Below are positions 37,390 to 63,877 of a stretch of 64,000 nt of DNA, piece after piece; position 1 is the first letter of the stretch; each line of letters opens with the position of its first letter. The DNA comes from Chitinophagales bacterium (lineage in GTDB: Bacteria > Bacteroidota > Bacteroidia > Chitinophagales > UBA10324). The DNA lies in assembly GCA_025056305.1 (NCBI GenBank), contig JANWWJ010000036.1:1-64000 (forward strand). The letters run 5' to 3'. A program made the translations under genes and the position numbers. The notes under the pieces were generated by a model. It had not been told where the DNA came from, ran no database searches, and saw only the letters and a program-made list of their open reading frames with translations.

Positions 37390-37884
37390 ATGAGGACAAT
37401 TGAAGAAGTATTTCGATACAAACAACACGATTCATATGAAACGCTGGAAGCCTGGCAGCGTGCTTTGCTGATCTATGCATGGGAGGCGCTCTCAACAGCT
37501 TATGCCCCCTACAGCCGTTTTCGCGTTGGCGCCGCCGTGCAGTTAGACCATGGCCAGATTGTTACGGGCAGCAATCAGGAAAACGCATCGTCGCCGGCAG
37601 GTCTATGTGCCGAACGAACGGCTTTAGCCGTGGCCGTCATGACTTATCCCAACCGAATCATCAAGGCAATTGCCATTCGAGCCAGCGCTGAAAACGAGCT
37701 GCTGGCACAACCCGTGGCACCCTGTGGCATCTGCCGCCAAGCCCTTTTAGAACAAGAGCAGCGACAAAACCATGCCATACAATTGTTGTTGCAAGGTGCC
37801 GCTGGCCCGATTGCAGAAATTTCCTCTGTTAAAGATATGCTGCCGCTGTATTTCTGGAGGAACACCGGTGGAAGGAAATATTAA
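37390..37884 (+). CDS. cdd: Cytidine deaminase
   Basis: This 164-residue zinc enzyme deaminates cytidine and deoxycytidine to the uridine forms (pyrimidine salvage). The motif CAERTALAVAV carries one zinc Cys and the catalytic Glu, and PCGICRQALLE carries the two other Cys. AYAPYSRFRVGAAV and SNQENASSPAGL are the substrate-binding blocks. The N-terminal extension (about 30 residues) is typical of the Bacteroidota form. TAACTTTC at 37363-37370 is a near match to the -7 element, 19 bases before the ATG. Confidence 0.95.
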   Translation: MRTIEEVFRYKQHDSYETLEAWQRALLIYAWEALSTAYAPYSRFRVGAAVQLDHGQIVTGSNQENASSPAGLCAERTALAVAVMTYPNRIIKAIAIRASAENELLAQPVAPCGICRQALLEQEQRQNHAIQLLLQGAAGPIAEISSVKDMLPLYFWRNTGGRKY

Positions 37885-37898
37885 ATAAGTTTTTATGA

Positions 37899-39833
37899 TT
37901 ACCGGAACAAAAGCTGGTTGTTGGCAAAATCAATCACGATGTTCATGCGGTTAAGCACATCTACCCCAACCAAAACCGGCTGCTTTTGATTTTCATTTAT
38001 AGACACCGGAACTTGACTCAAGCTTCGTTCCCCTACTTTGACCACGGTAACCTTCCCCTGACTTTCAGCCGGCGACCAACCCAACAAGGCACTTCCTTCT
38101 TGATTTACGCTCACTCCTAAAACCAACGCAGACAACGGATAGAGCTGCTTCACTCCATTGATGATCATTTCAGCCTGTAAGCCTTCTGTGTGAGCGGTTA
38201 ACGGCATCGATGCCGGGGGCACCGGCTTATACCGTTCTTTTATGGCACTCATGGTTTGCTTGATTGCCTCGTTGCCCGGATTAAGCGCCAGCGCCTGCTG
38301 GTAATAGTAGGTAGCTGTTCCGTAATGGTTACGAATGAGATTGATGTTGCCTAAATACTCATAGGCCTCTACCAATTCGCGACTGAAGCGGGTGGCATCG
38401 GAACTGGCTTTTTCCAAGACCATCAGGTAGTAGGGCACGGCCAATCCGCGCACCGAGTCGAGATGGGTATGATCCAGCCCTTGCTGGCTACGACCTCGCC
38501 ACAGGTAGCCCACTGCCCAGTTTGGATTCAGGCGAATCACCGTAGCAAATGCCGAATCAGCAGCAGCATAATTGGCCGCCTGGTAGTGCGAGCGACCCAG
38601 ATTGAAGTAATCGACGATTTGCGCTTTACGCGGTGCAACCGCGATTTTCATGGCATAAAAACGCGCTGCTTCAGGAAAATTTTTTCGGTCGTATTCCCAT
38701 TTGGCCAGATCGCCGTACAGATCAGCTTTGCTGCTGTCCATAGCGACGGCCGCAAAAGCTGCTTTTTTGGCTTCCTCAGCCCGCCCCAAGGCCAAGTTCA
38801 GGCGGGTCTGGTATTCGTAGTCGGCCGCTATGATTTTGTTTGGATCGATCCGGCGAAAGTATTCTTCCAAATGGCGAAGCCCTTCTTCATATTTTCCCGT
38901 TTCATAAGCAGTATAAGCCATCAGACGGAAATAAATCGGCTTGTCAATCTTGCCCCACAACGAAGCCAAAATATCTGCAACTTCATTATATTTTTTTGTT
39001 AGAAACAAGAATTGCGCATAGCGGAAACGGGTTTCGTCGCTCTCATCAGCGAGCTTGAGGTACTGATGATAATCCTGGACAGCCTTTTCGGTTTGTCCGA
39101 TCATATAAAACAATTCCGCCCGCTCTCGGTAGGCGGGTGGGTAATGGGGATCGGCGGCTATGGCCTTATCGAAGTTGGTCTTGGATAATTCGCCGCGTTG
39201 GGCATCGCGCCAGATGCGTCCCATGCGTGTATAGGCTTTGGCAAGAGAGGGATTAAGTTCGGTAGCGCGCTCATAAGCCGATACGGCGTCGCCCGTACGG
39301 CTGACACCCATGCCCTCATAGGCAAGGCCCAACAACCAGTATGCTTCAGCATTTCTGTTGTTGAGTTCGATGACGCGGTTGAGCAGGCTGACGGCACGGG
39401 CGTAATCAGGATGTTCGGCCCGAATGCAGGCTTCAGCTACAGCCAGGTAGTAGTTCTGATCCTTGGCACTGGTGAGGCTTCGGGCTTTTTCAAAATATTC
39501 GTTGGCTTTAGCAGGCTGATTCTTTTCCAAATACGCCCGGCCCAGGCCAATGTAGTTATAATAATTTTTTGCATCTAATGAAAGGCCGTGAGTGAAAACT
39601 GCGATAGCCGAATCTGGTTTACCCAGGTAACATAAGGTGAGGCCGAGGTAGTAAGAGGCCATGGGGTCGGATGGTTGTGCCTGCACTTGTTGCCTAAAAA
39701 GACGGTAAGCTGAATGGAAATTTTCGTATTCCAAGGCCTTGATCCCTTGTTGATATGGTTGAGCAAACAACCCTGGGGTGATCAGCATGATGGCGAGCAC
39801 CTGATGCCAATGGGCCAAGCGATTCTTGCGCAT
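37899..39833 (-). CDS. TPR-repeat protein with a retropepsin-like C-terminal domain lacking catalytic residues
   Basis: This 644-residue exported protein has a signal peptide ending near PGLFAQP. About a dozen TPR-type repeats follow (for example ASYYLGLTLCYLGKPDSAIA, YYNYIGLGRAYLEKNQPAKA, AYWLLGLAYEGMG). The last 95 residues are a retropepsin-like fold: EMIINGVKQLYPLSALVLG, then LVGVDVLNRMNIVIDFANNQ. The position of the catalytic DTGA is occupied by LSAL or VLGV, and no DTG or DSG is present, so protease activity is unlikely. It is the last gene of the exbB-tonB operon. The ATG at 39833 is the start; the frame opens earlier at a TTG (39845). It may be a periplasmic scaffold. Confidence 0.85.
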   Translation of the reverse strand: MRKNRLAHWHQVLAIMLITPGLFAQPYQQGIKALEYENFHSAYRLFRQQVQAQPSDPMASYYLGLTLCYLGKPDSAIAVFTHGLSLDAKNYYNYIGLGRAYLEKNQPAKANEYFEKARSLTSAKDQNYYLAVAEACIRAEHPDYARAVSLLNRVIELNNRNAEAYWLLGLAYEGMGVSRTGDAVSAYERATELNPSLAKAYTRMGRIWRDAQRGELSKTNFDKAIAADPHYPPAYRERAELFYMIGQTEKAVQDYHQYLKLADESDETRFRYAQFLFLTKKYNEVADILASLWGKIDKPIYFRLMAYTAYETGKYEEGLRHLEEYFRRIDPNKIIAADYEYQTRLNLALGRAEEAKKAAFAAVAMDSSKADLYGDLAKWEYDRKNFPEAARFYAMKIAVAPRKAQIVDYFNLGRSHYQAANYAAADSAFATVIRLNPNWAVGYLWRGRSQQGLDHTHLDSVRGLAVPYYLMVLEKASSDATRFSRELVEAYEYLGNINLIRNHYGTATYYYQQALALNPGNEAIKQTMSAIKERYKPVPPASMPLTAHTEGLQAEMIINGVKQLYPLSALVLGVSVNQEGSALLGWSPAESQGKVTVVKVGERSLSQVPVSINENQKQPVLVGVDVLNRMNIVIDFANNQLLFR

Positions 39834-39841
39834 AAAGCGAA

Positions 39842-40738
39842 TCAAAATTCTTTTTTAACCTCTATTACGCGAACCGGCTGCTTGACAGCCAGTAAGCCGA
39901 ATCGGTGAACGGCCAACTGCCCGTCCTGCGCCATAAGAAAAGTTCCAAAACCCATGCCGACGCTTACGCCTTTTTCCCGAATAATGAGATAGATTTCTCT
40001 CAGAAAAGGATAACAACGGCTCAATAAATGAGGCCGAGCCGGAAGACATATGCGCCCGCTGGTATCCTGAACAGCCAATACCCTCACTCGTTGCAAGATA
40101 GCCTCTGAAATGGTATCGCCCCGTTTGCTGATCCAGCTTGAACTGATGACCCCAACTGCCTCGACATTCTGTTCAATGTAGCTGACCACAGCTTCCTCGT
40201 CGGCAACAGCAAAAACTCGAGGGCTTAGCGTGCGTCCTTGGGGCAACAACTGTTGCAACGATCGATATAGGGCTGACCTCATGCCCGGAACAATGATAGG
40301 TCCGGTTTGTCCGCCGGGGGCTTTTCCTTCCAGCAACTGATACAGTTGTTCTACGGTATAAACAGTGTCGGTTCGCTTGCGGTTGACGATGAAGGCGATG
40401 CCATCGCCGGCAAATAAGAGTTGGCGCACCACTTCTCCTTTCTCGCGCACGGGCAGTGTTTCGGCATCGGTGAGTTGTCGGCTGAGCAAGGCCAGCTGCG
40501 CAGAATCTGCCAACAACAGGCGGGAAACCTGCTCTTCGTCGGCATAGATGGCGGTAATGTCGGCCTCAGGATATCGAGCTTCATAGATCTGTATGAGATC
40601 GTCCATCAAAGGACGCAAGGTGGCATCGCAGGCAACCGTAAGTTTGCCGGCTATCAGCGAGGGCTCTTGTTTTTTCTTTCCAGAAGTACAAGATGCCCAA
40701 ACGACGAGCACAAAAAGCCAAAGCGCGCCTGCTTGCAT
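39842..40738 (-). CDS. PstS-like periplasmic substrate-binding lipoprotein
   Basis: This is a 298-residue lipoprotein with lipobox VVWASC and a PBP-like fold. Recognisable segments are GKLTVACDATLRPLMDDLIQ, YPEADITAIYADEEQVSRLL, LLFAGDGIAFIVNR and VEAVGVISSSWISKRGD. The layout resembles phosphate-binding proteins of the PstS type. No permease or ATPase gene is near, and the true pst operon is elsewhere in the window. It lies between a small membrane-protein gene and a TPR gene downstream of tonB, so a role in the Ton or envelope system is more likely than transport. The function is unproven. Confidence 0.8.
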   Translation of the reverse strand: MQAGALWLFVLVVWASCTSGKKKQEPSLIAGKLTVACDATLRPLMDDLIQIYEARYPEADITAIYADEEQVSRLLLADSAQLALLSRQLTDAETLPVREKGEVVRQLLFAGDGIAFIVNRKRTDTVYTVEQLYQLLEGKAPGGQTGPIIVPGMRSALYRSLQQLLPQGRTLSPRVFAVADEEAVVSYIEQNVEAVGVISSSWISKRGDTISEAILQRVRVLAVQDTSGRICLPARPHLLSRCYPFLREIYLIIREKGVSVGMGFGTFLMAQDGQLAVHRFGLLAVKQPVRVIEVKKEF

Positions 40739-40741
40739 GAG

Positions 40742-40927
40742 TCAATGAGGTTTACGAAAAAGGGTAATGTAAGCCCGAAAAAGGGCATAGGCCCAAAAGG
40801 CAAGTCCCAATACGACACGCAAGGAACCGGAAAATTCTGGAAACCAATGAGTCAGCAACAATATAGTTCCTACGCTTACATAGGCCAACACCATGATAAA
40901 ATGAAATAACCTCTGGCTGGCCCTCAC
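40742..40927 (-). CDS. Small two-helix membrane protein in the Ton operon
   Basis: This 61-residue protein has two predicted membrane helices: FIMVLAYVSVGTILLLTHWF and LRVVLGLAFWAYALFRAYI, with a basic end (RKPH). The start is GTG at 40927, 9 bases after the tonB stop. ATG at residue 12 would shorten the first helix. Small proteins like this occur between TonB and the binding-protein gene in other Bacteroidota, which supports it as real. The function is unknown. Confidence 0.65.
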   Translation of the reverse strand: MRASQRLFHFIMVLAYVSVGTILLLTHWFPEFSGSLRVVLGLAFWAYALFRAYITLFRKPH

Positions 40928-40936
40928 GCACCCAGT

Positions 40937-41731
40937 TTATTCAGCACCCAGTTTAAATGTAATGGGCAACTTAAAATAAACCTTCACCGGCTGACCGTTC
41001 TGTCGCCCCGGCTTCCACGGAGGCATGGACTTGACGACACGAATAGCTTCCTCTGTCGTTCCCCCTCCGATTTCCCGCAAAGGCACGATATCGGAAATGT
41101 TGCCGTTTTCATCCACGACAAACTGAAGTACGACGCGCCCCTCAATGCCGTTCTCGCGTGCGGCCGGCGGGTATCTGATGTTTTTCTGCAAATACTTCAT
41201 CAACTCAGCCTGCCCACCGGGAAATTCAGGCATCTGCTCCACATAAGTAAAAATCTGAGGCTTCACCTCTTCTTCTACGACGGTGGCCTGCTGCACGGCA
41301 CTGAAATCATACTCGACGTTATCGCTGGCCGGGCCTGTCTCCACGGTTTTGAGTTCTTCAATTGGCGGAGGCACATCTTCTTCCCGCACTTCTTCATCGG
41401 GCTTGATGATGGGCGGAGTAAATTTCACCGTTTTGGGAGGAGGAGGCAGATCAGGCGGTGGCGGCGGTGGTGTGTTCTTATCAATGGGTGGTGGTTCAGA
41501 CAGCTCTGTGATTTTTATCTTTTTTTCCACAACTGGAGGGGCCGGCTTTTTGAAAAGCTTCAGGATGTAAGGCATGGAAAAGCCCAACATGAAGACAGCT
41601 GTTCCTACAATAAGTCCTATGGTAAGGTGACGCAGGTAACGCTTGCGCAAGTAATAAGCCCCATAGCTCTTATTGCGGCCTTCAAAAACCAGGTCATCAA
41701 GTTCTGCCTTCAGGATTTCTTCCGGTCGCAT
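40937..41731 (-). CDS. tonB: TonB energy transducer
   Basis: This 264-residue protein couples the proton-motive force to outer-membrane receptors. The cytoplasmic N-terminus (ELDDLVFEGRNKSYGAYYLR) is typical of Bacteroidota TonB. One helix (LTIGLIVGTAVFMLGFSMPY) is followed by a Pro-rich periplasmic linker (ENTPPPPPPDLPPPPKTVKF-type). The C-terminal domain has QMPEFPGGQAELMKYLQKNI, RYPPAARENGIEGRVVLQFV and KSMPPWKPGRQNGQPVKVYF. It follows the two exbD genes with normal spacing. Confidence 0.95.
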   Translation of the reverse strand: MRPEEILKAELDDLVFEGRNKSYGAYYLRKRYLRHLTIGLIVGTAVFMLGFSMPYILKLFKKPAPPVVEKKIKITELSEPPPIDKNTPPPPPPDLPPPPKTVKFTPPIIKPDEEVREEDVPPPIEELKTVETGPASDNVEYDFSAVQQATVVEEEVKPQIFTYVEQMPEFPGGQAELMKYLQKNIRYPPAARENGIEGRVVLQFVVDENGNISDIVPLREIGGGTTEEAIRVVKSMPPWKPGRQNGQPVKVYFKLPITFKLGAE

Positions 41732-41776
41732 GGCTTTACAAAATAATTAACGATTTAGGGATTGAGAAAATTACCC

Positions 41777-42319
41777 TCATTCGGGGAGCATGGCCAATTC
41801 TTCAGGGGTGGGATCTACTATGGCATACGACTTAATATCGTTGATTTTCATTTCATCCAACATATCAACTAGATTTTGATAGCGTGACTTATCGGTGGGC
41901 TTGATTCCTATGTAAACGCCATTGGGTTTCCAACCGTTAGCCTGCTGGAGAGCCAGTACCTCACGATTACGCTGCTGAATAACCTTGCGAATATTGGTAA
42001 AGTTGGTAACCTCCACTTTAGGGTTTTCAATACCGAAGTAGTAATAAACGCGATCGTTACCTCCCAACAGAATAGTCATTGATTCTGACTCACGGATCTT
42101 AGACATCTGGGCAGTATCCTTCACGTCTTTTTCGGGCATTACGACCTGCATAGCTTTCGGCTTACTCATAGTGGTGGTCAGGATAAAAAAGGTTACCAAA
42201 AGGAAGGCCAGGTCCACCATCGGCGTCATATCCACGCGGGTAGAGAGCTTCTTAGCTCGAACGCCACCTCGTTTTTTGCCGTGGTGCGCCCCTTCACTTC
42301 CGGTCAACATTTCAGCCAT
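41777..42319 (-). CDS. exbD: ExbD/TolR-family proton-channel accessory protein (second copy)
   Basis: This 180-residue protein has one membrane helix. The Asp required for proton flow is in STRVDMTPMVDLAFLLVTFF. The periplasmic domain carries GGNDRVYYYFGIENPKVEV and IGIKPTDKSRYQNLVDMLDE. It begins 10 bases after the first exbD. Two different ExbD copies are usual in this operon type, and the two probably form the heteromeric part of the channel. Confidence 0.95.
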   Translation of the reverse strand: MAEMLTGSEGAHHGKKRGGVRAKKLSTRVDMTPMVDLAFLLVTFFILTTTMSKPKAMQVVMPEKDVKDTAQMSKIRESESMTILLGGNDRVYYYFGIENPKVEVTNFTNIRKVIQQRNREVLALQQANGWKPNGVYIGIKPTDKSRYQNLVDMLDEMKINDIKSYAIVDPTPEELAMLPE

Positions 42320-42328
42320 GGCATCAAT

Positions 42329-42952
42329 CTATTTAAGGGCATCTGGCGGAGGAGGCATTTCATCCGCTGTAATCAAACCAAATTTATTGACTTTGCTGAG
42401 GGCAAGCGTTTCAAAAACATTGCGTACGGCCGGATAGGTGGCGTTCAAATCGCCTTTGATCAGGATTACAGGGTTGTTTCCTGCCCTCCGACCATTTTCC
42501 AACCAGTAATACAGTTCATTAGCCAAGCTCTTAGTGGTGTCGGCAGGAATGCCGGGCTGTTCGACTTTTCTACGGTCTTCTGGCGGCAAGGCAAGAAAAC
42601 TTTTCAGCTGGTTCATGGGCATGCCAATACTGCTGCCCACGACAAAAGCATTAATCTCATCCAAGGTGAAATTGATGCCATAGGTTTCCCCCATGCGCTG
42701 GATCAGTTCCCGGCGATAGTTCTGATTGTCCAAGTCAAAAAAGATGCGGCCGTCGGGAGCAATGGTGATGGTAAGGTTTCCTTTTTCCTGCGGTTGGGTC
42801 ATCGAGGTTGAAGAAGGCATTTGGACCTGAACGGGCTCGTCAGGTCGAAACTGTGTGGTAAGGATGAAGAAAGTCACCAGCAGGAAGGCCACATCCACCA
42901 TAGGGGTCATGTCTATGGCGGTGCTGGCCCGAGGCATTTTGAGTTTGGTCAT
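42329..42952 (-). CDS. exbD: ExbD/TolR-family proton-channel accessory protein (first copy)
   Basis: This 207-residue protein has the same plan as its neighbour: a basic start, one helix in STAIDMTPMVDVAFLLVTFF with the conserved Asp, then FRPDEPVQVQMPSST and a periplasmic domain with TITIAPDGRIFFDLDNQN and NPVILIKGDLNATYPAVRN. It is longer than ExbD of E. coli (141 residues) because of an extra segment in the middle. It sits 9 bases after exbB. Confidence 0.95.
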   Translation of the reverse strand: MTKLKMPRASTAIDMTPMVDVAFLLVTFFILTTQFRPDEPVQVQMPSSTSMTQPQEKGNLTITIAPDGRIFFDLDNQNYRRELIQRMGETYGINFTLDEINAFVVGSSIGMPMNQLKSFLALPPEDRRKVEQPGIPADTTKSLANELYYWLENGRRAGNNPVILIKGDLNATYPAVRNVFETLALSKVNKFGLITADEMPPPPDALK

Positions 42953-42961
42953 CGCTGCCTG

Positions 42962-43756
42962 CTAGTTGTGCTGCGCACTGAAGGTGTTGGTAATGCTGTA
43001 CCCTGCTTCGTCAATTAAGTAAGTAAGCGTATCGATGCGCGTACTGAAATAGCTATAGGCGATGATGGCCAATGCTGAAGTGGTAATGCCCGTAGCTGTG
43101 TTTACCAGGGCTTCGGAAATACCGATAGACAAGGCAACAGAATCAGCAGCACCCGACTGGCCCATGGCCGAGAATGCCCGTATCATGCCGAAAACCGTGC
43201 CAATAAGTCCGGTGAGGGTACCTAAAGGAGCAATGGTAGCTATGAACGGCAGGTTGCGTTGCAACATGGGCAATTCTAGGGCCGTGGCTTCTTCAATTTC
43301 TTTTTGAATAGCCAGAACCTTTTGTTCATGCGTTAGCTGCGTGTTGACCACCATCTCCCGGTATTTCTTCAAGCCGCTCTTGATGACGTTAGCAACAGAG
43401 CCGCGCTGTTTGTCGCATTCGCGTTCGGCAGCATCTAAATCATTGGATGCAAGGTGGTACTGCACACGCCGTACGAAGTTGGCGGCATTGCCTGTGCCGC
43501 GGGCGCGTGTGATGGTCAACAAACGCTCAATGGTAAACACAATCACCATAAGCAGTTGCGTCAGAATAATGGGCACCATAAATCCTCCTTTATACATGAC
43601 ACCGGCAATGTTGCCAACCTTAGGTTTCTCGCGATGTTCATCAACGAAATTGTCCGGATCGCCCAGATAAAATTCCCAGATGATGTATGACACCGCGTAG
43701 CAAACGACGATAACCAGTATCGGGAATATGTTTGCAAAAGTGCTTCGCTTACTCAT
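42962..43756 (-). CDS. exbB: ExbB/MotA-TolQ-family proton channel
   Basis: This 264-residue protein probably has four membrane helices in two regions. The N-terminal one starts FANIFPILVIVVCYAVSYII. MVPIILTQLLMVIVFTIERL has a conserved Glu. The core block is LPFIATIAPLGTLTGLIGTV, followed by AFSAMGQSGAADSVALSIGI and SEALVNTATGITTSALAIIA, which form the proton-conducting helices. It is the first gene of the operon and has the best promoter in this window. Confidence 0.95.
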   Translation of the reverse strand: MSKRSTFANIFPILVIVVCYAVSYIIWEFYLGDPDNFVDEHREKPKVGNIAGVMYKGGFMVPIILTQLLMVIVFTIERLLTITRARGTGNAANFVRRVQYHLASNDLDAAERECDKQRGSVANVIKSGLKKYREMVVNTQLTHEQKVLAIQKEIEEATALELPMLQRNLPFIATIAPLGTLTGLIGTVFGMIRAFSAMGQSGAADSVALSIGISEALVNTATGITTSALAIIAYSYFSTRIDTLTYLIDEAGYSITNTFSAQHN

Positions 43757-43786
43757 TTTAAAAAAGTTTGATGATTAACGGGCTGG

Positions 43787-43817
43787 CAAATTTAGGATTA
43801 ACTTTTACACATGCAAA
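43787..43817 (-). promoter_or_regulatory. Promoter of the exbB-exbD-exbD-tonB operon
   Basis: On the minus strand TTTG (43817-43814), a 19-base spacer and TAAATTTG (43794-43787) form a complete match to the Bacteroidota consensus TTTG-N19-21-TAnnTTTG. The -7 element ends 30 bases before the exbB ATG. Confidence 0.75.
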
Positions 43818-57611: not shown

Positions 57612-58664
57612 TCAGCGCTCGTCGGCTTTGGCCAGCGTAAAACCGAAGGTGGACCCGACACCCGGTTTGCTGCGTACATTGATGGTTTGTTGGTGCGCCT
57701 CGATGATGTGTTTGACGATGGCCAGCCCCAAGCCGGTTCCGCCTTGCTCACGGCTGCGGCTTTTATCGACGCGGTAAAATCGCTCAAACAAACGGGGAAT
57801 ATGTTCCTCTGCAATACCGATGCCGTCATCGGTAACTTCTATCAATACGTTATCCCCCATGTCATAATAGCTGACGATGGTATTACCGTTTTCCCTGCCG
57901 TACTTGATGGAATTATCTAATAAGTTGACCAATACCTGCCGGATGCGTTCTTTGTCGGCCACCACATAAAAGGGCCGATCGCATCCTTTCTTCACACTAA
58001 ACCGAATTTGCTTGGTGTTTGCTTTATATTCGATCTCTTCAAATACATCGCGGGTGAGCGAATAAATGTCAAATGTTTCCAGATCCAGCGTTTCTTCGCC
58101 GCTTTCCAGCCGAGCAATCTGTTCTAAATCATTCACCAGTGTCACAAGCCGCTCGATCCCCTGGGCTGTTTTTTCTAAAAAATGGTGGCTAACCTCTTTG
58201 TCGTCCATAGCCCCATCCAGCAGGGTGTGCACGTATCCCTGAATGCTGAACAACGGCGTCTTGAATTCATGCGACAAGTTGGATAAAAACTCTTTTCGGT
58301 ATTGCTCTGCCTTGCGTAGGCTTTCCAGCTCCCGCTGGTTTCGCTCGGCCCATTCACTGACCTCTTGTTGTACTTCATTGATTGGATCGTTGCCCACCGA
58401 TTGCCCAAGCACCTCCCGAGTGAAGCGATCCACTTTCAAATTATGAATGGTCTTATATATCAGTTTGATTTTTCGGTAAATGAATCGATTCAAGATGTAA
58501 GAAAACAAGAAATAGGCGCCCAAACCTACTATGCCCCCTAAAAGCACGGGCTGCCAAAGAGGGCTGCGCACCCATAGGGAAAGCACTTCTTGCACCACGA
58601 CGGCTAAAACGGCAACGGCCCCCCCCGCATACCAAGCCAGGGCTCTCGGAGAAGGATTTTTCAT
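57612..58664 (-). CDS. phoR: Sensor histidine kinase PhoR-like, phosphate regulon
   Basis: This 350-residue kinase has two membrane helices at the N-terminus (residues about 9-27 and 38-60) with a very short loop between them, so external sensing is limited. The helix region IYKTIHNLKVDRFTREVLG leads into the HisKA domain with the phosphoacceptor in NLSHEFKTPLFSIQGYVHTL. The HATPase has NLLDNSIKYGRENG, DDGIGIAEEHIP and GGTGLGLAIVKHI. No PAS domain is recognisable. It follows phoB by 9 bases. The Pho role is inferred from position in the pst operon. Confidence 0.9.
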   Translation of the reverse strand: MKNPSPRALAWYAGGAVAVLAVVVQEVLSLWVRSPLWQPVLLGGIVGLGAYFLFSYILNRFIYRKIKLIYKTIHNLKVDRFTREVLGQSVGNDPINEVQQEVSEWAERNQRELESLRKAEQYRKEFLSNLSHEFKTPLFSIQGYVHTLLDGAMDDKEVSHHFLEKTAQGIERLVTLVNDLEQIARLESGEETLDLETFDIYSLTRDVFEEIEYKANTKQIRFSVKKGCDRPFYVVADKERIRQVLVNLLDNSIKYGRENGNTIVSYYDMGDNVLIEVTDDGIGIAEEHIPRLFERFYRVDKSRSREQGGTGLGLAIVKHIIEAHQQTINVRSKPGVGSTFGFTLAKADER

Positions 58665-58673
58665 GCCTGCACT

Positions 58674-59366
58674 TCAGATTTCAAACTTATATCCGACACC
58701 TTTAACAGTTTTTATCAAAGACTCGCCTACTTTTTGTCGGATCTTGCGCACATGCACGTCGATGGTGCGGTCGCCCACAATGACTTCGTCGCCCCAGATG
58801 CGTTTAAGAATTTCGGCCCGCGGAAAGACCCTTCCGGGTTTGGACGCCAACATGGCCAACAGGTCGAATTCTTTGCGCGCCAGAAACACTTCCTGATCAT
58901 TGACGCGCACGATACGTCGCTCGCGGTCAATCGTCACGTGACCGATAGAAATTTGATCCATAACATCACCGGCCGTGCGGCGGCGCAACAAGGCCTTCAA
59001 TCGGCTTACCAACAGGCGCGGCTTAATGGGCTTGGTGATGTAGTCATCAGCACCGGCATGAAAGCCCGCCAACTCGCTTTGTTCATCATTGCGGGCCGTA
59101 AGAAAGACGATGAGCACCTGCCTGAGCTCACGTAAGCTACGCAAGTGCTCGGCGGTAGCCAGCCCATCCAAATTGGGCATCATCACATCCAAAAGCACCA
59201 GGTCCGGATGTACTTCTCGCGCCAGGCGAATAGCTTCCAGGCCATCGCGCGCGGCATACACCTCATAGCCTTCCTTGCGCAGACTATACTCGATAAACTC
59301 CAGTACATCAACTTCATCATCCACGATCAGGATTTTAGCAGCAGGGCTGTGGGTTGATGCTTGCAT
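58674..59366 (-). CDS. phoB: Response regulator PhoB-like, phosphate regulon
   Basis: This 230-residue OmpR/PhoB-type regulator has a receiver domain with the acidic pocket DDEVDVLEF, phosphoacceptor Asp in LVLLDVMMPNLDG, LTARND and DDYITKPIKPR. The winged-helix domain has ARKEFDLLAMLASKPGRVFP, RAEILKRIWGDEV and the DNA-binding helix VGDRTIDVHVRKIRQKVGE. The start at 59366 is next to the phoU stop (1-base gap); the frame opens much earlier at 59450. It probably controls the pst operon, but its binding sites in this phylum are not known to me. Confidence 0.92.
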   Translation of the reverse strand: MQASTHSPAAKILIVDDEVDVLEFIEYSLRKEGYEVYAARDGLEAIRLAREVHPDLVLLDVMMPNLDGLATAEHLRSLRELRQVLIVFLTARNDEQSELAGFHAGADDYITKPIKPRLLVSRLKALLRRRTAGDVMDQISIGHVTIDRERRIVRVNDQEVFLARKEFDLLAMLASKPGRVFPRAEILKRIWGDEVIVGDRTIDVHVRKIRQKVGESLIKTVKGVGYKFEI

Positions 59367-59367
59367 A

Positions 59368-60033
59368 TCAAATTTTTTCTTTTTCGTGTTTGAGCACGTG
59401 GGCCTCCACGTAAAAGATGATTTCTTCAGCAATGTTTTTATTGAGGTCACCGATGCGCTCCAGTTTGCGCACCGTGCTGTTTACGTTCAGCAGGTCTGCA
59501 ACCCGATCGGGATGTTGAGGGAAATAGTCGATCACGATCTGGATTGCTTTTCGGTTCCAGGCATCGAGCTGACCGTCGCTTTGAAAAATTTTTCGAGCCT
59601 TGGCACTGTCGCCATCACGAAAAGCCATGATGTTGCTTTCAATCATTTGTTCGAGCTGATCTACGGCTGCAAACAGCTCAAGTTTTTCCAACAGGTCTTC
59701 AGGCAAGGGTCGCTGCAGCTCCAGCGCATAAGAGGCAATGCCTTTGCTGTGATCGCCCATTCGTTCCAGATGGCTGTTGATTTTAAAAGCGGCAAATACC
59801 AACCGCAGATCGATAGCTACGGGATTGAACAATGCCATAATGTTCTCGCAATCCCGGTCGATTTTCAGCTCTGTGGCATTGATACGGCGTTCCTGAAAAA
59901 GCACTTCTCGGGCTAAATCTTTGCGCATATGCACCAGAGCCTGCACACTTTTGCGCAGCTGGTGCCGCACCAGATTGCCCATTTCTTCAATTTCACCTTT
60001 AAGGCGATTAAGCTCCGAATCTAAGTGTGTCAT
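59368..60033 (-). CDS. phoU: Phosphate transport regulator PhoU
   Basis: This 221-residue, all-helical protein has two PhoU repeats. The metal-binding type motif appears as RINATELKIDRDCENI and DPIAx-like VAIDLRLVFAAFKINSHLER, and the second repeat has LERIGDLNKNIAEEIIFYVE. It normally keeps the kinase PhoR inactive when phosphate is plentiful by contact with PstB. It lies between pstB and phoB on the same strand. Confidence 0.94.
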   Translation of the reverse strand: MTHLDSELNRLKGEIEEMGNLVRHQLRKSVQALVHMRKDLAREVLFQERRINATELKIDRDCENIMALFNPVAIDLRLVFAAFKINSHLERMGDHSKGIASYALELQRPLPEDLLEKLELFAAVDQLEQMIESNIMAFRDGDSAKARKIFQSDGQLDAWNRKAIQIVIDYFPQHPDRVADLLNVNSTVRKLERIGDLNKNIAEEIIFYVEAHVLKHEKEKI

Positions 60034-60069
60034 GGCTGCAAAATTCAGTGGTGGGTAAGGGGTTCATTG

Positions 60070-60828
60070 TTAGCCAAAGCGACCGGTGATGTAATTCTGT
60101 GTTTTTTCATTGCGGGGGTTGGTAAACAAATCTTTCGTTTCGGCATACTCGATGAGCTCCCCCAAATAGAAAAAGGCAGTCCAATCGCTCACACGAGCTG
60201 CCTGTTGCATGTTATGGGTCACGATGAGGATGGTGTATTTTTTCTTTAACTCCCAAATGAGCTCTTCGATCTTGGCGTTGCTGATAGGATCCAATGCCGA
60301 AGAGGGCTCATCCATCAGAATGACCGATGGCTCCACGGCCAATGCACGGGCTATACACAAGCGCTGTTGTTGTCCTCCCGACAAGGCCAGGGCTGATTTT
60401 TTTAAATTATCCTTTACCTCATCCCAAAGTGCGGCTTGCCGCAAGGCACGCTCCACCGTTTCTTCGATATAGCGCTTGTTGGTTACGCCGTTGATGCGTA
60501 ACCCATATGCCACATTTTCAAAAATGGATTTGGGAAAAGGATTAGGCTTTTGAAAAACCATGCCGACCCGCTTGCGCACATCCTCTACCCGCACGCCATC
60601 GGCATAGATGTTTTTTCCATTGAGCAAAACCTCGCCTTCCACCCTGACGCCGTCTATCATGTCGTTCATCCGATTAAACAACCGCAAATAAGTGGACTTA
60701 CCGCAACCCGATGGCCCGATTATGGCTACCACTTTGTTTTCCGGTACGCCCAGCGTGATGTTTTTGAGCGCCTGCGTGTTGCCGTAATACAAGCTGACGT
60801 TTCGGGTTTCTATCTTGAAATAACTCAT
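60070..60828 (-). CDS. pstB: Phosphate ABC transporter ATP-binding protein
   Basis: This 252-residue ATPase has Walker [21 protein letters not shown], signature [16 protein letters not shown] and Walker [29 protein letters not shown]-type sequence ([12 protein letters not shown]) marks the switch His. The ATG at 60828 overlaps the pstA stop as ATGA. The open frame to 61284 is not coding upstream of that. The normal length of PstB is 250-260. Confidence 0.97.
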
Positions 60829-61682
60829 CGCGAAAAGCGGTTTCTCAGGTAAATGGCCGTAGCATTCAACAGCAAGGTAATGCACAACAACACAATGATG
60901 CCTGCGGCTGCATTTTCGTGGAAGGCAGCTTGCGGGCGTGAAATCCAGTTGAAAATCTGTATGGGCAGAATGGTAAAGGGCGAGCGTAGATCGTCCGGCA
61001 AAAAGGTGACGAAGGTCAACGCTCCAATGGTGATCAAAGGGGCCGTTTCTCCTATGGCTCGCGACACCGCCAAGATGATGCCGGTCAGAATAGAGGGAAA
61101 AGAAATGGGCAGCAGGTGGTGCCAAATGGTTTGCCAGCGCGTAGCCCCCATGGCAAACGATGCTTCTCTGATCCCAGGTGGTACCGAACGCAATGCTTCC
61201 CGTGCCGATATGATTATTACCGGCATGATCAGTAACGAAAGGGTGAGGGCTCCGGCAATCAAGCTGCGATCTAACTGCATCCACCGTACAAACAAGCCCA
61301 AGCCCAGTAAGCCGTAAACAATCGATGGGACGCCCGCCAAATTGGCTATGTTTAATTCAATGAACCGGCTGAACCAATTTTTTCTTCCGTATTCTTCCAG
61401 ATAGATAGCTGCACCGATGCCCAAGGGAACGGCTATGACAATGGTAAGCAAAACTACGAGGACGCTGCCCACCATACCAGCCAAAATGCCAGCCTCTTCG
61501 GCCCGCCGCGAGGGAAAAGAGGTCAAAAACTGCTTGTTGAGCCTTCCGATACCGTCTTCAAAGACAGTATACAGCAACCACATCAGCACCATGACGGCAA
61601 ACAACAAGCCGGCAAGGGCCACCACTTGAAACAGGGTGTCGTACAACCGTTGCTTTAGGGCGTGCCGGCGATAGTGTTCCAT
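60825..61682 (-). CDS. pstA: Phosphate ABC transporter permease PstA
   Basis: This 285-residue inner-membrane permease has about six helices. [20 protein letters not shown] and [19 protein letters not shown] are typical of PstA, and [20 protein letters not shown], followed by [12 protein letters not shown], is the coupling-helix (EAA-type) region that contacts PstB. It follows pstC by 8 bases. Confidence 0.96.
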
Positions 61683-61690
61683 AGTACTGT

Positions 61691-62641
61691 TCAGTTGCCT
61701 CCTCCAATCGCCATAAATGTTTTCCGAATGCGAAAGCTGATCATGTTCAAAATGAAGGTGAGCACAAAAAGGGCGATGGCCACAGCGAAAATGGTGTTAT
61801 AAGCCAACGAACCGTATGGCGTATCCCCCTGGCTTACCTGAACGATATAAGCCGTCATCGTAGATACTGGCTCTAAGGGATTCCAAGTGAGTTGCGGCAG
61901 ATTACCGGCTGCGATGGCAACAATCATGGTTTCACCTACTGCCCGCGACAATGCCAAAATGATCGATGCCATGATACCCGACAAAGCCGAAGGAAAAACG
62001 ATGGTTAACGATACCTGCAGCTTGCTGGCTCCTAAAGCAAAGCCTCCTTCGCGCAAGCTGTCTGGAACAGCCCGCAAGGCATCTTCACTTAGGCTGGTTA
62101 CCAACGGCAAAATCATGATGCCCATCACGATGCCCGGCGACAAAGCATTAAATCCTCCTAAGCCCGGAATCAGCTTTTGCAACAAGGGTGTAATGGTCAA
62201 AAGAGCGAAGTAACCGTACACAATCGTGGGAATTCCCGCCAGTATTTCCAAAAACGGTTTAATGACTTTACGAATCGGCCTGCGGGCATATTCGCTTAAA
62301 TAAACCGCTACCGCCAGACCTAACGGCACACTGACTAACAAGGCAATCAGGGAGGTAAGCAAGGTGCCACACAATAAAGGAAGAATGCCAAAATGCTTTT
62401 CAGCAAATAAGGGAGTCCATTGCTTACTGGTCAAAAATTCAATGATAGATACCTCCCTAAAAAAATAATAAGACTGTACCACCAACACGGCCAGAATAGC
62501 CAGCGTCGTAAATACCGATACCAAAGAGCACAAAAACAGAATGGCACGCACCAGCGTGTCGGTCAGGTAGGGTAAGCGTCGCTTCTTTTGAATTTTGCTT
62601 TCACCGGCAATAGCCTGCCCCACTTCCTTGAACAGCTGCAT
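61691..62641 (-). CDS. pstC: Phosphate ABC transporter permease PstC
   Basis: This 316-residue permease has six helices. The family blocks are VPLGLAVAVYLSEYARRPIR, KPFLEILAGIPTIVYGYFAL and EDALRAVPDSLREGGFALGA with SKLQVSLTIVFPSALSG, the coupling region. The first 30 residues are cytoplasmic and basic (KIQKKRRLPYLTDTL). It pairs with PstA to form the phosphate channel and is preceded by pstS with an 8-base gap. Confidence 0.96.
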   Translation of the reverse strand: MQLFKEVGQAIAGESKIQKKRRLPYLTDTLVRAILFLCSLVSVFTTLAILAVLVVQSYYFFREVSIIEFLTSKQWTPLFAEKHFGILPLLCGTLLTSLIALLVSVPLGLAVAVYLSEYARRPIRKVIKPFLEILAGIPTIVYGYFALLTITPLLQKLIPGLGGFNALSPGIVMGIMILPLVTSLSEDALRAVPDSLREGGFALGASKLQVSLTIVFPSALSGIMASIILALSRAVGETMIVAIAAGNLPQLTWNPLEPVSTMTAYIVQVSQGDTPYGSLAYNTIFAVAIALFVLTFILNMISFRIRKTFMAIGGGN

Positions 62642-62649
62642 GCTCTCCG

Positions 62650-63660
62650 TTAAGTTCCGCCCTGCAATTTTTCTTTAAGGTTGGTGCCTACCTCTTTTCC
62701 ATCCGGGTACATCGTACCCGAAACTTTGTTTTGCCAACGCAGCTTTACCAATTCCATCAATTCTGCCTGGAGCGGAATGTACCCAACTTCGCGTGCCAAA
62801 GTGTTGACGTGCTCCAGATAGAAATCCACAAATCGGTTAACGATCTCCGGTATGGTATCCTCCTGCCGCACATACAAATAGAGCGCCCGCGCCAAAGGCC
62901 CATAGGTTCCGTCCTGTACGGTCTGCTCTGAGGGTGTCACAGCAGCTGTGCCGTTGGCTTCATTTTCATCGTCAATAGGCACCAACTTGAGTTTTTCATG
63001 GTTTTCCAAGTAATAAGCGATGCCGAAATATCCCAAAGCCCCAGGGTTTGCATTGACACCTTGCACCAGCACGTTATCATCTTCGCTGGCCGTGTAATCG
63101 CCTCGGCTGTTTCCCCGTTCACCCATTACTGCTTCGGTGAAATATTCAAAGGTGCCACTGTCCGTCCCCGGTCCGAACAACTGAAGTTTCATGTCCGGAA
63201 AACCGGGCCGAACTTGATTCCAATTGGTGATTTTGCCCTGGGCTGCGGACTCCCATATTCGCCGCAATTCACTCAGCGATAATTTATCTACCCACGTGTT
63301 GTCAGGATGCACCACGACGGCTAAGCCGTCATAGGCCACCGGCAACTCTATGAAGTGCAGGCCACGTCCCGAGCAGTTGCTTACTTCTCCGGGCGCTATG
63401 GGTCGGGAAGCATTGGTAATGTGCACTTCTCCGTTACAGAATTTTTTAAATCCCCCGCCGGTACCCGACACTCCGATAGTAATGCGCACATCGGGATGTT
63501 GCTTTTGAAATTCTTCGGCTACGGCTTCGGTGATGGGATAAACCGTGCTGCTGCCATCAATGCGCAAGGTCGTCACACTGCTTTGCCGTTCGGAGCTCCC
63601 ACATTGGACCATAACGAAGGCCACAGCACAGAGGCCTACCTTTCCCAGCTGATGTCGCAT
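62650..63660 (-). CDS. pstS: Phosphate-binding lipoprotein PstS
   Basis: This protein of about 336 residues is from the ATG at 63660, which gives a lipoprotein signal ending in FVMVQC. The ATG at 63714 adds 18 residues that would disturb the signal. The mature part has LRIDGSSTVYPITEAVAEEF, ITIGVSGTGGGFKKFCNGEV, SRPIAPGEVSNC, LFGPGTDSGTFEYFTEAVMG and ALGYFGIAYYLEN, all residues of the phosphate-binding loops. The region upstream on the minus strand has the T-rich TAATCTTTTGATAACTTTTG, which may include the promoter. It is the first gene of the pst-pho operon. Confidence 0.95.
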   Translation of the reverse strand: MRHQLGKVGLCAVAFVMVQCGSSERQSSVTTLRIDGSSTVYPITEAVAEEFQKQHPDVRITIGVSGTGGGFKKFCNGEVHITNASRPIAPGEVSNCSGRGLHFIELPVAYDGLAVVVHPDNTWVDKLSLSELRRIWESAAQGKITNWNQVRPGFPDMKLQLFGPGTDSGTFEYFTEAVMGERGNSRGDYTASEDDNVLVQGVNANPGALGYFGIAYYLENHEKLKLVPIDDENEANGTAAVTPSEQTVQDGTYGPLARALYLYVRQEDTIPEIVNRFVDFYLEHVNTLAREVGYIPLQAELMELVKLRWQNKVSGTMYPDGKEVGTNLKEKLQGGT

Positions 63661-63877
63661 CGTGGTAAAAGTTGCTGGCACAAAGCTAATGGCGCCCTTT
63701 CCTTGCTGCTCCATTCAAAAGTTATCAAAAGATTACTGGCTGATGCCAGCAGGTAACAATTTGGAAACACACAAGGGAGATTTTCTTTGTTGTGCACACC
63801 CCATTTCGGGATGAAAGCCTGAAAGGAAAACAGAATATGCCCCGCGGTTTACAAAAACTTAAGCCGCTTTTGTAAGG
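63661..63877. other. Upstream region of pstS, no gene recognised
   Basis: These 217 bases lie between the start of pstS and the end of the next gene on the minus strand. Close to pstS the minus strand has TAACTTTTG (around 63717-63725), one base longer than TAnnTTTG, which may be the operon promoter. If so, the ATG at 63714 would lie at the RNA start and the ATG at 63660 is the better start. I cannot identify a Pho box. Confidence 0.35.

Follow-up and report, generated by a model that had tools for sequence, protein, structure and literature searches.

A putative binding protein and a tetratricopeptide repeat (TPR) protein encoded behind the ton genes of a Chitinophagales bacterium, together with a small membrane protein where one is present, probably work on the periplasmic side of one of two alternative Ton motors of Bacteroidota, as parts dedicated to that motor, as judged from sequence comparison. 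The genes lie in a stretch of 64,000 nucleotides (contig JANWWJ010000036.1, positions 1 to 64,000; hereafter the window), in the order exbB-exbD-exbD-tonB-small-PBP-TPR between 43756 and 37899 on the minus strand, where PBP stands for the putative binding protein, a PstS-fold lipoprotein. The motor that they would serve, made up of ExbB, two ExbD and TonB, is called type A; the other, with the cluster exbB-X-exbD-exbD, is called type B. PBP and TPR protein appear to be gained and lost with the type-A motor, linked to it or not, and the pattern by which the pair follows one of two near-exclusive motors is new here.

The evidence that carries this reading is co-inheritance. Among 44 genomes, an ortholog of the TPR protein (at least 170 bits) was found in all 20 PBP-positive genomes and in none of the 24 PBP-negative ones. 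Type-A ExbD1 (at least 157 bits) was present in 29 of 29 PBP-positive genomes vs 1 of 24 PBP-negative genomes, the 29 being the 20 compared for the TPR protein and nine more of family f20. Genomes were taken as PBP-negative when they gave no match at 1e-30; four of them (G056, G086, G100 and G157) gave none at 1e-10 in the phylum search, and one (G283) gave a weak match there.

Type B clusters were found in 18 of 20 regions fetched from PBP-negative genomes, with TonB recognised nearby in only one of the 20. X is a membrane protein of 103-173 aa; the member shown has no Pfam family over cut-off, and DUF7937 is weakly matched by 5 of 16 X proteins (best E 1.3e-5). Clusters with this uncharacterised protein were seen in loci L206-L214, L216-L222, L224, L225, L230-L234 and L236. 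Whereas 22 of the 24 PBP-negative genomes carry X, only 2 of the 20 PBP-positive ones do (one of them marginally), and since X was first spotted in PBP-negative genomes, its presence there is by construction. When 197 Bacteroidia genomes were compared at thresholds of E ≤1e-30 for PBP and E ≤1e-8 for X, PBP was found in 125 and X in 70, such that 123 genomes had PBP only, 68 had X only, 2 had both and 4 had neither; no fewer than 49 of those with X only are independent of the 20 loci in which X was discovered. X-positive genomes among those with PBP are G360 and G291, with G465 marginal (E 8e-4). Both states occur within seven families, and genus g183 is itself mixed, with four PBP genomes and four X genomes; by inspection beside the clusters, its PBP-type and X-type fetched regions have no neighbouring gene family in common.

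In the ExbB tree, types A and B form separate, well-supported clades except for L223, which is counted as B and falls inside A, and L215, which groups with two outgroup rows; branches are long and the bootstrap is unsettled. Type B as the same motor with another cargo was rejected because the A and B clades of ExbB are separate. Genomes with type B presumably import TonB-dependent substrates too, which is why we read the PBP-TPR pair as serving the type-A motor and not uptake generally.

The features of the operon in the window are the following, all on the minus strand:

43787-43817, minus: candidate promoter TTTG-N19-TAAATTTG, just upstream of exbB (pattern match in the window)
42962-43756, minus: exbB (264 aa), type A motor; MotA_ExbB 92.9 bits, cut-off 22.9; among type-A ExbB in the tree
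42329-42952, minus: exbD1 (207 aa); ExbD 77.1 bits, cut-off 25.4
41777-42319, minus: exbD2 (180 aa); ExbD 65.6 bits, cut-off 25.4
40937-41731, minus: tonB (264 aa); TonB_C 66.5 bits, cut-off 24.6
40742-40927, minus: small membrane protein of 61 aa with two hydrophobic stretches and a GTG start; alignment with 17 others
39842-40738, minus: PBP, PstS-fold lipoprotein of 298 aa, Cys17; PBP_like_2 72.2 bits, cut-off 27; AlphaFold2 (AF2) model and PDB match
37899-39845, minus: TPR protein of 648 aa with a signal-like N terminus, a solenoid at about 29-540 and a C-terminal beta-rich domain; TPR families over cut-off
37902-38192, minus: retropepsin-like C-terminal domain of the TPR protein, without the catalytic motif, a putative family-specific add-on

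A preliminary description of this DNA had listed the same seven open reading frames (ORFs), and all of them were recovered at its coordinates and on its strand, with families over cut-off for every one except the 61-aa protein. Of what defines a Ton system, MotA_ExbB, two ExbD and the TonB C-terminal domain were each found over cut-off. The 61-aa protein has no Pfam or NCBIfam family over cut-off; it aligns with small proteins in the same position of 17 named loci, which have two hydrophobic stretches. The intergenic gaps are 9 bases from exbB to exbD1, 9 from exbD1 to exbD2, 45 from exbD2 to tonB, 9 from tonB to the small gene and 3 from there to PBP, and PBP and TPR genes overlap by 4 bases with a TTG start; if translation begins instead at an in-frame ATG four codons further on, 8 bases separate them. 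Fourteen bases lie between the end of the TPR gene and a convergent ORF (37390-37884). TTTG-N19-TAAATTTG, which we take to be a Bacteroidota-type promoter consensus, matches the window once, and as 1.03 matches are expected by chance, only its position is suggestive. Taken together, the seven genes look like one operon. The source genome (2.41 Mb) has three TonB_C places, one of them below cut-off.

That the arrangement recurs in the phylum, as had been proposed, was borne out in phylum regions, in relatives and in named loci. The 80 named loci come from public genomes searched with a 12-sequence PBP alignment and include Pontibacter, Hymenobacter, Rufibacter, Solitalea, Bacteroides and Ignavibacteria; as the best 80 of at least 570 confirmed matches they lean to the query, so that class-wide linkage is overstated by them. 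The TPR gene is directly downstream of PBP in 77 of the 80, and 71 have Exb/Ton genes on the PBP strand at a distance of no more than about 3 kb (64 upstream, and 7 downstream in permuted order). Seven of the remaining nine run into the end of a contig on one or both sides and two are without adjacent Exb/Ton genes, although one of these two (L197) has five of them at another place in the locus. A small ORF with fitting features was found in 72 of the 80. The permuted order, PBP-TPR and then exbB-exbD, was seen in L159, L163, L167, L179, L183, L185 and L192, and Pontibacter/Hymenobacter operons with two tandem tonB genes before PBP-TPR were seen in L125-L127, L129-L131, L140, L141, L143, L174 and others.

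Forty phylum regions were chosen, each around a strong PBP match, and 25 of them have four Exb/Ton genes upstream with the TPR gene downstream, while 4 have TonB only plus the TPR gene. Among 20 regions of relatives, all four Exb/Ton genes precede PBP in 12, TonB alone is present in 2 and none of the four in another 4, and 2 are cut by a contig end; 19 of the 20 have the TPR gene after PBP. The phylum-wide PBP search (226/296 matches) contains many PstS-like proteins and is not used as an ortholog count. Genes that by inspection look like those of complex I (nuoA to nuoF) come immediately after the operon in L071 (8784-12901). Tandem PstS-like pairs, one frame longer, were seen away from tonB in more distant relatives (L093, L095 and L096).

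PBP is a putative binding protein, yet it falls outside PstS proper. Its AF2 model (predicted local distance difference test score, pLDDT, 91.7) has 4gd5 as best PDB match (Z 26.5, root-mean-square deviation, rmsd, 2.4, 234 aligned, 18% identity). The likeness to the PstS structures 4gd5 and 4q8r lies in the fold and the PBP_like_2 domain, whereas PBP has Asp/Glu for Ser/Thr in the first two loops and shares 18-19% identity with them. To the PstS subfamily TIGR02136, which all 41 aligned PBP members match to some degree, the window's PBP scores 37.5 bits against a cut-off of 206.6. Asp38 was found in all 41 aligned sequences (Ser in the window's true PstS and in 4gd5), Glu39 in 36 (Ser in the true PstS), Glu68 in 40 (Thr in the true PstS, Ser in 4gd5) and Asp151 in 40 (Arg in 4gd5, presumably the phosphate-holding arginine, E. 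coli Arg135). Arg87, Asp112 and Ser155 are common to PBP and the window's true PstS, and the lipobox cysteine is invariant in 56 PBP sequences, five non-orthologous rows being excluded. A loss of phosphate binding or a changed ligand appears likely from these residues.

The true PstS belongs to a complete pst operon at 57612-63714 on the minus strand, encoding PstS (62650-63714), PstC, PstA and PstB; by inspection it also holds PhoU, a response regulator and a histidine kinase, and it provides a built-in control for PBP. None of PstC, PstA and PstB is encoded with PBP in its operon, so the preliminary description was right to call the PBP gene that of a lipoprotein without a transporter, although the window nonetheless has a complete pst operon with PstS. 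PBP as the binding protein of the pst transporter was rejected, the pst operon having its own PstS.

The AF2 model of the TPR protein is a solenoid with pLDDT >90 over most of residues 30-540. Residues 272-533 match 3u4t (Z 22.3, rmsd 3.7, 257 aligned, 32% identity; 278 bits with the family profile), a 272-residue chain of Cytophaga hutchinsonii whose entry title states no function, and 3u4t (Q11TI6) is most likely an ortholog of the TPR protein. For the C-terminal domain, which the preliminary description had called a dead retropepsin, "dead" agrees with the absence of an Asp-Thr/Ser-Gly motif from all seven homologous domains; "retropepsin" is a weakly supported fold, as PF13975 on the last 97 residues gives 22.0 bits against a cut-off of 28.2 (E 2.5e-4) with the profile's second half only. 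PF13975 is matched by 6 of the 7 homologous domains (best E 2.5e-4), the best PDB sequence match of the domain has E 0.16, and AF2 confidence is low there. Of 10 relatives examined from the window's family, 6 have the domain, and it was seen in none of the TPR proteins examined outside that family, a set separate from the 80 named loci. As a core part of the system it was rejected, being confined to the window's family among the TPR proteins examined, and its place in a recurrent module, as first described, had to be given up; that it is an add-on of the window's own family is a weakly supported assignment.

Several observations weigh against reading PBP and TPR protein as parts of the type-A motor. 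Co-inheritance is no proof of contact. In three of the 20 PBP-positive genomes the TPR gene does not adjoin PBP, as it does in the other 17, one PBP-negative genome (G388) has type-A ExbD1 with neither a PBP nor a TPR match, and a PBP match is missing in 24 of 60 relatives. PBP-TPR stands without Exb/Ton genes nearby in 6 of the 40 phylum regions (L064, L065, L068, L069, L086 and L088), and 5 more (L093, L095, L096, L097 and L103) have weaker PBP matches without tonB or a downstream TPR gene; we take these weaker matches for ordinary PstS-like proteins. The small ORF was not found in 8 of the 80 named loci, including four Bacteroides loci, so the small protein is not essential to the design. 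The near-exclusivity of PBP and X has a Fisher p of 3e-45 with relatedness ignored; a more cautious count is a minimum of roughly one switch per mixed family, of which there are seven. In the pocket of the PBP encoded in the window, position 39 is Ala and position 151 is Pro, which makes the ligand idea weaker for this species. The equivalent of position 151 in the window's true PstS is Pro and not Arg; as the true PstS also lacks the arginine, position 151 alone does not exclude phosphate, and loss of the phosphate arginine was withdrawn as a clear-cut argument. Tandem PstS-like pairs, one frame longer, were seen away from tonB in more distant relatives (L093, L095 and L096).

Linkage is the remaining point. 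The preliminary description would have been undone if the families were usually found apart from tonB; near the query they are found with it, whereas in the wider sample PBP lies less than 10 kb from exbD1 in only 11 of 29 PBP-positive genomes, which also tells against the motor reading. The other 18 comprise six with the two genes 17-22 kb apart, three with more than 200 kb between them on one contig (G034, G322 and G408) and nine with the genes on different draft contigs. In G408, a single contig, PBP, TPR and ExbD1 are each at least 240 kb from the others. Since the three are present together despite such distances, the trio seems to have been kept in the genome where the operon broke up. 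G408 (C1), G378 and G380 are genomes in which the operon is wholly broken up, with PBP, TPR and type-A ExbD1 retained at separate places.

If PBP and TPR protein are components of the type-A motor, TonB or ExbD would be the periplasmic docking site for the PBP lipoprotein and the TPR solenoid, with the TPR protein as adapter; PBP would close around a non-phosphate ligand, or around a basic side chain offered by a partner protein, and its closure would switch or steady the motor. One specific form of this idea is a gate, in which a formerly phosphate-binding PBP with an acidic pocket would report a periplasmic ligand via the TPR adapter and so switch TonB, type B either lacking this control or having X in its place; so detailed a scheme is tentative, and we consider it rather improbable as it stands.

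We think it unlikely that PBP instead captures the substrates that TonB-dependent transporters deliver to the periplasm and passes them further, with the TPR protein as its link to the transporters. A binding-protein fold with a conserved pocket (D38 in 41/41, E68 in 40/41, D151 in 40/41) and the Ton operon context are what such a relay would predict; an ABC (ATP-binding cassette) permease gene is however absent from the seven, and 68 of the 70 X genomes are without PBP although type-B genomes presumably import too, so that a relay should serve either motor. Doubtful, too, is a Tol-Pal-like system for outer-membrane stability at division, composed of motor, TonB/TolA-like transducer, lipoprotein and a CpoB-like TPR protein: the best NCBIfam scores of ExbB and ExbD1 among the models listed are to TolQ and TolR, far below cut-off, but TonB_C is over cut-off in TonB and no TolB or Pal model is among the matches listed for the seven proteins (for the TPR protein, the best 25 of 31). 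That these are unrelated envelope genes merely riding on the tonB transcript, with PBP a spare phosphate-binding protein, is very improbable: an annotators' gene name that refers to phosphate transport (PMC4446302) and the match of 41 of 41 aligned PBP to TIGR02136 favour it, against co-inheritance without linkage, permuted orders, the changes in the first two pocket loops and the separate complete pst operon in the window.

The preliminary description had regarded the system as undescribed, which does not hold for the synteny, in print since 2014: ExbB, ExbD, TonB, an 'ABC transporter' gene and a TPR gene are reported as syntenic in five taxa of four Bacteroidetes classes, namely Elizabethkingia anophelis, Flavobacterium johnsoniae, Dyadobacter fermentans, Arcticibacter svalbardensis and Bacteroides thetaiotaomicron, and a functional relationship was inferred by the authors (PMC4026382). 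Going by gene content, with sequences not compared, that cluster is most likely the same as the one in the window. In its section on the synteny, the published account of the cluster names no small protein, marks one hypothetical gene in D. fermentans, and gives no PBP analysis, co-inheritance test, alternative motor or function (PMC4026382). In open-licence PubMed Central papers we recognised no functional study of PBP, the TPR protein or the small protein, and no study of the changed pocket or the alternative-motor pattern, subscription literature lying outside that scope.

The nearest functional precedent for the TPR protein is TtpD2, a TPR protein encoded at the end of the tonB2 operon of Vibrio vulnificus, without which siderophores are not used through TonB2 (PMC6957404). 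The Vibrio system (TtpB2, TtpC2, TtpD2) is alike in being a Ton operon with extra proteins and the TPR gene last, and differs in that TtpD2 has 425 aa and that the part of the source describing it mentions no PstS-fold lipoprotein (PMC6957404). The TPR gene of the window is likewise last in the tonB operon, a likeness to TtpD2 by position alone. A further difference is that the Vibrio TonB2 system presumably has one ExbD. Data on uptake for tonB2 come from Riemerella, a relative, in which a transposon insertion in ExbD1 is on record (PMC7881567), and TonB-ExbBD is highly expressed in Flavobacterium psychrophilum (PMC9723704); as far as these reports bear on the added genes, neither settles their role. 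PMC10719396 was dropped as a relevant study, since in what it presents it concerns Rhodanobacter.

For Bacteroidota, TonB-dependent uptake is of great importance, glycan import in gut and soil being one instance. Should their type-A motor indeed include a lipoprotein and a TPR scaffold of its own, the four genes would be an incomplete set for reconstituting it or solving its structure. The split between types A and B, found even within one genus of the sample, would offer a natural comparison for the role of the added parts, and with half of a likely TPR ortholog solved (3u4t) and a confident PstS-fold model at hand, the idea may be tested directly.

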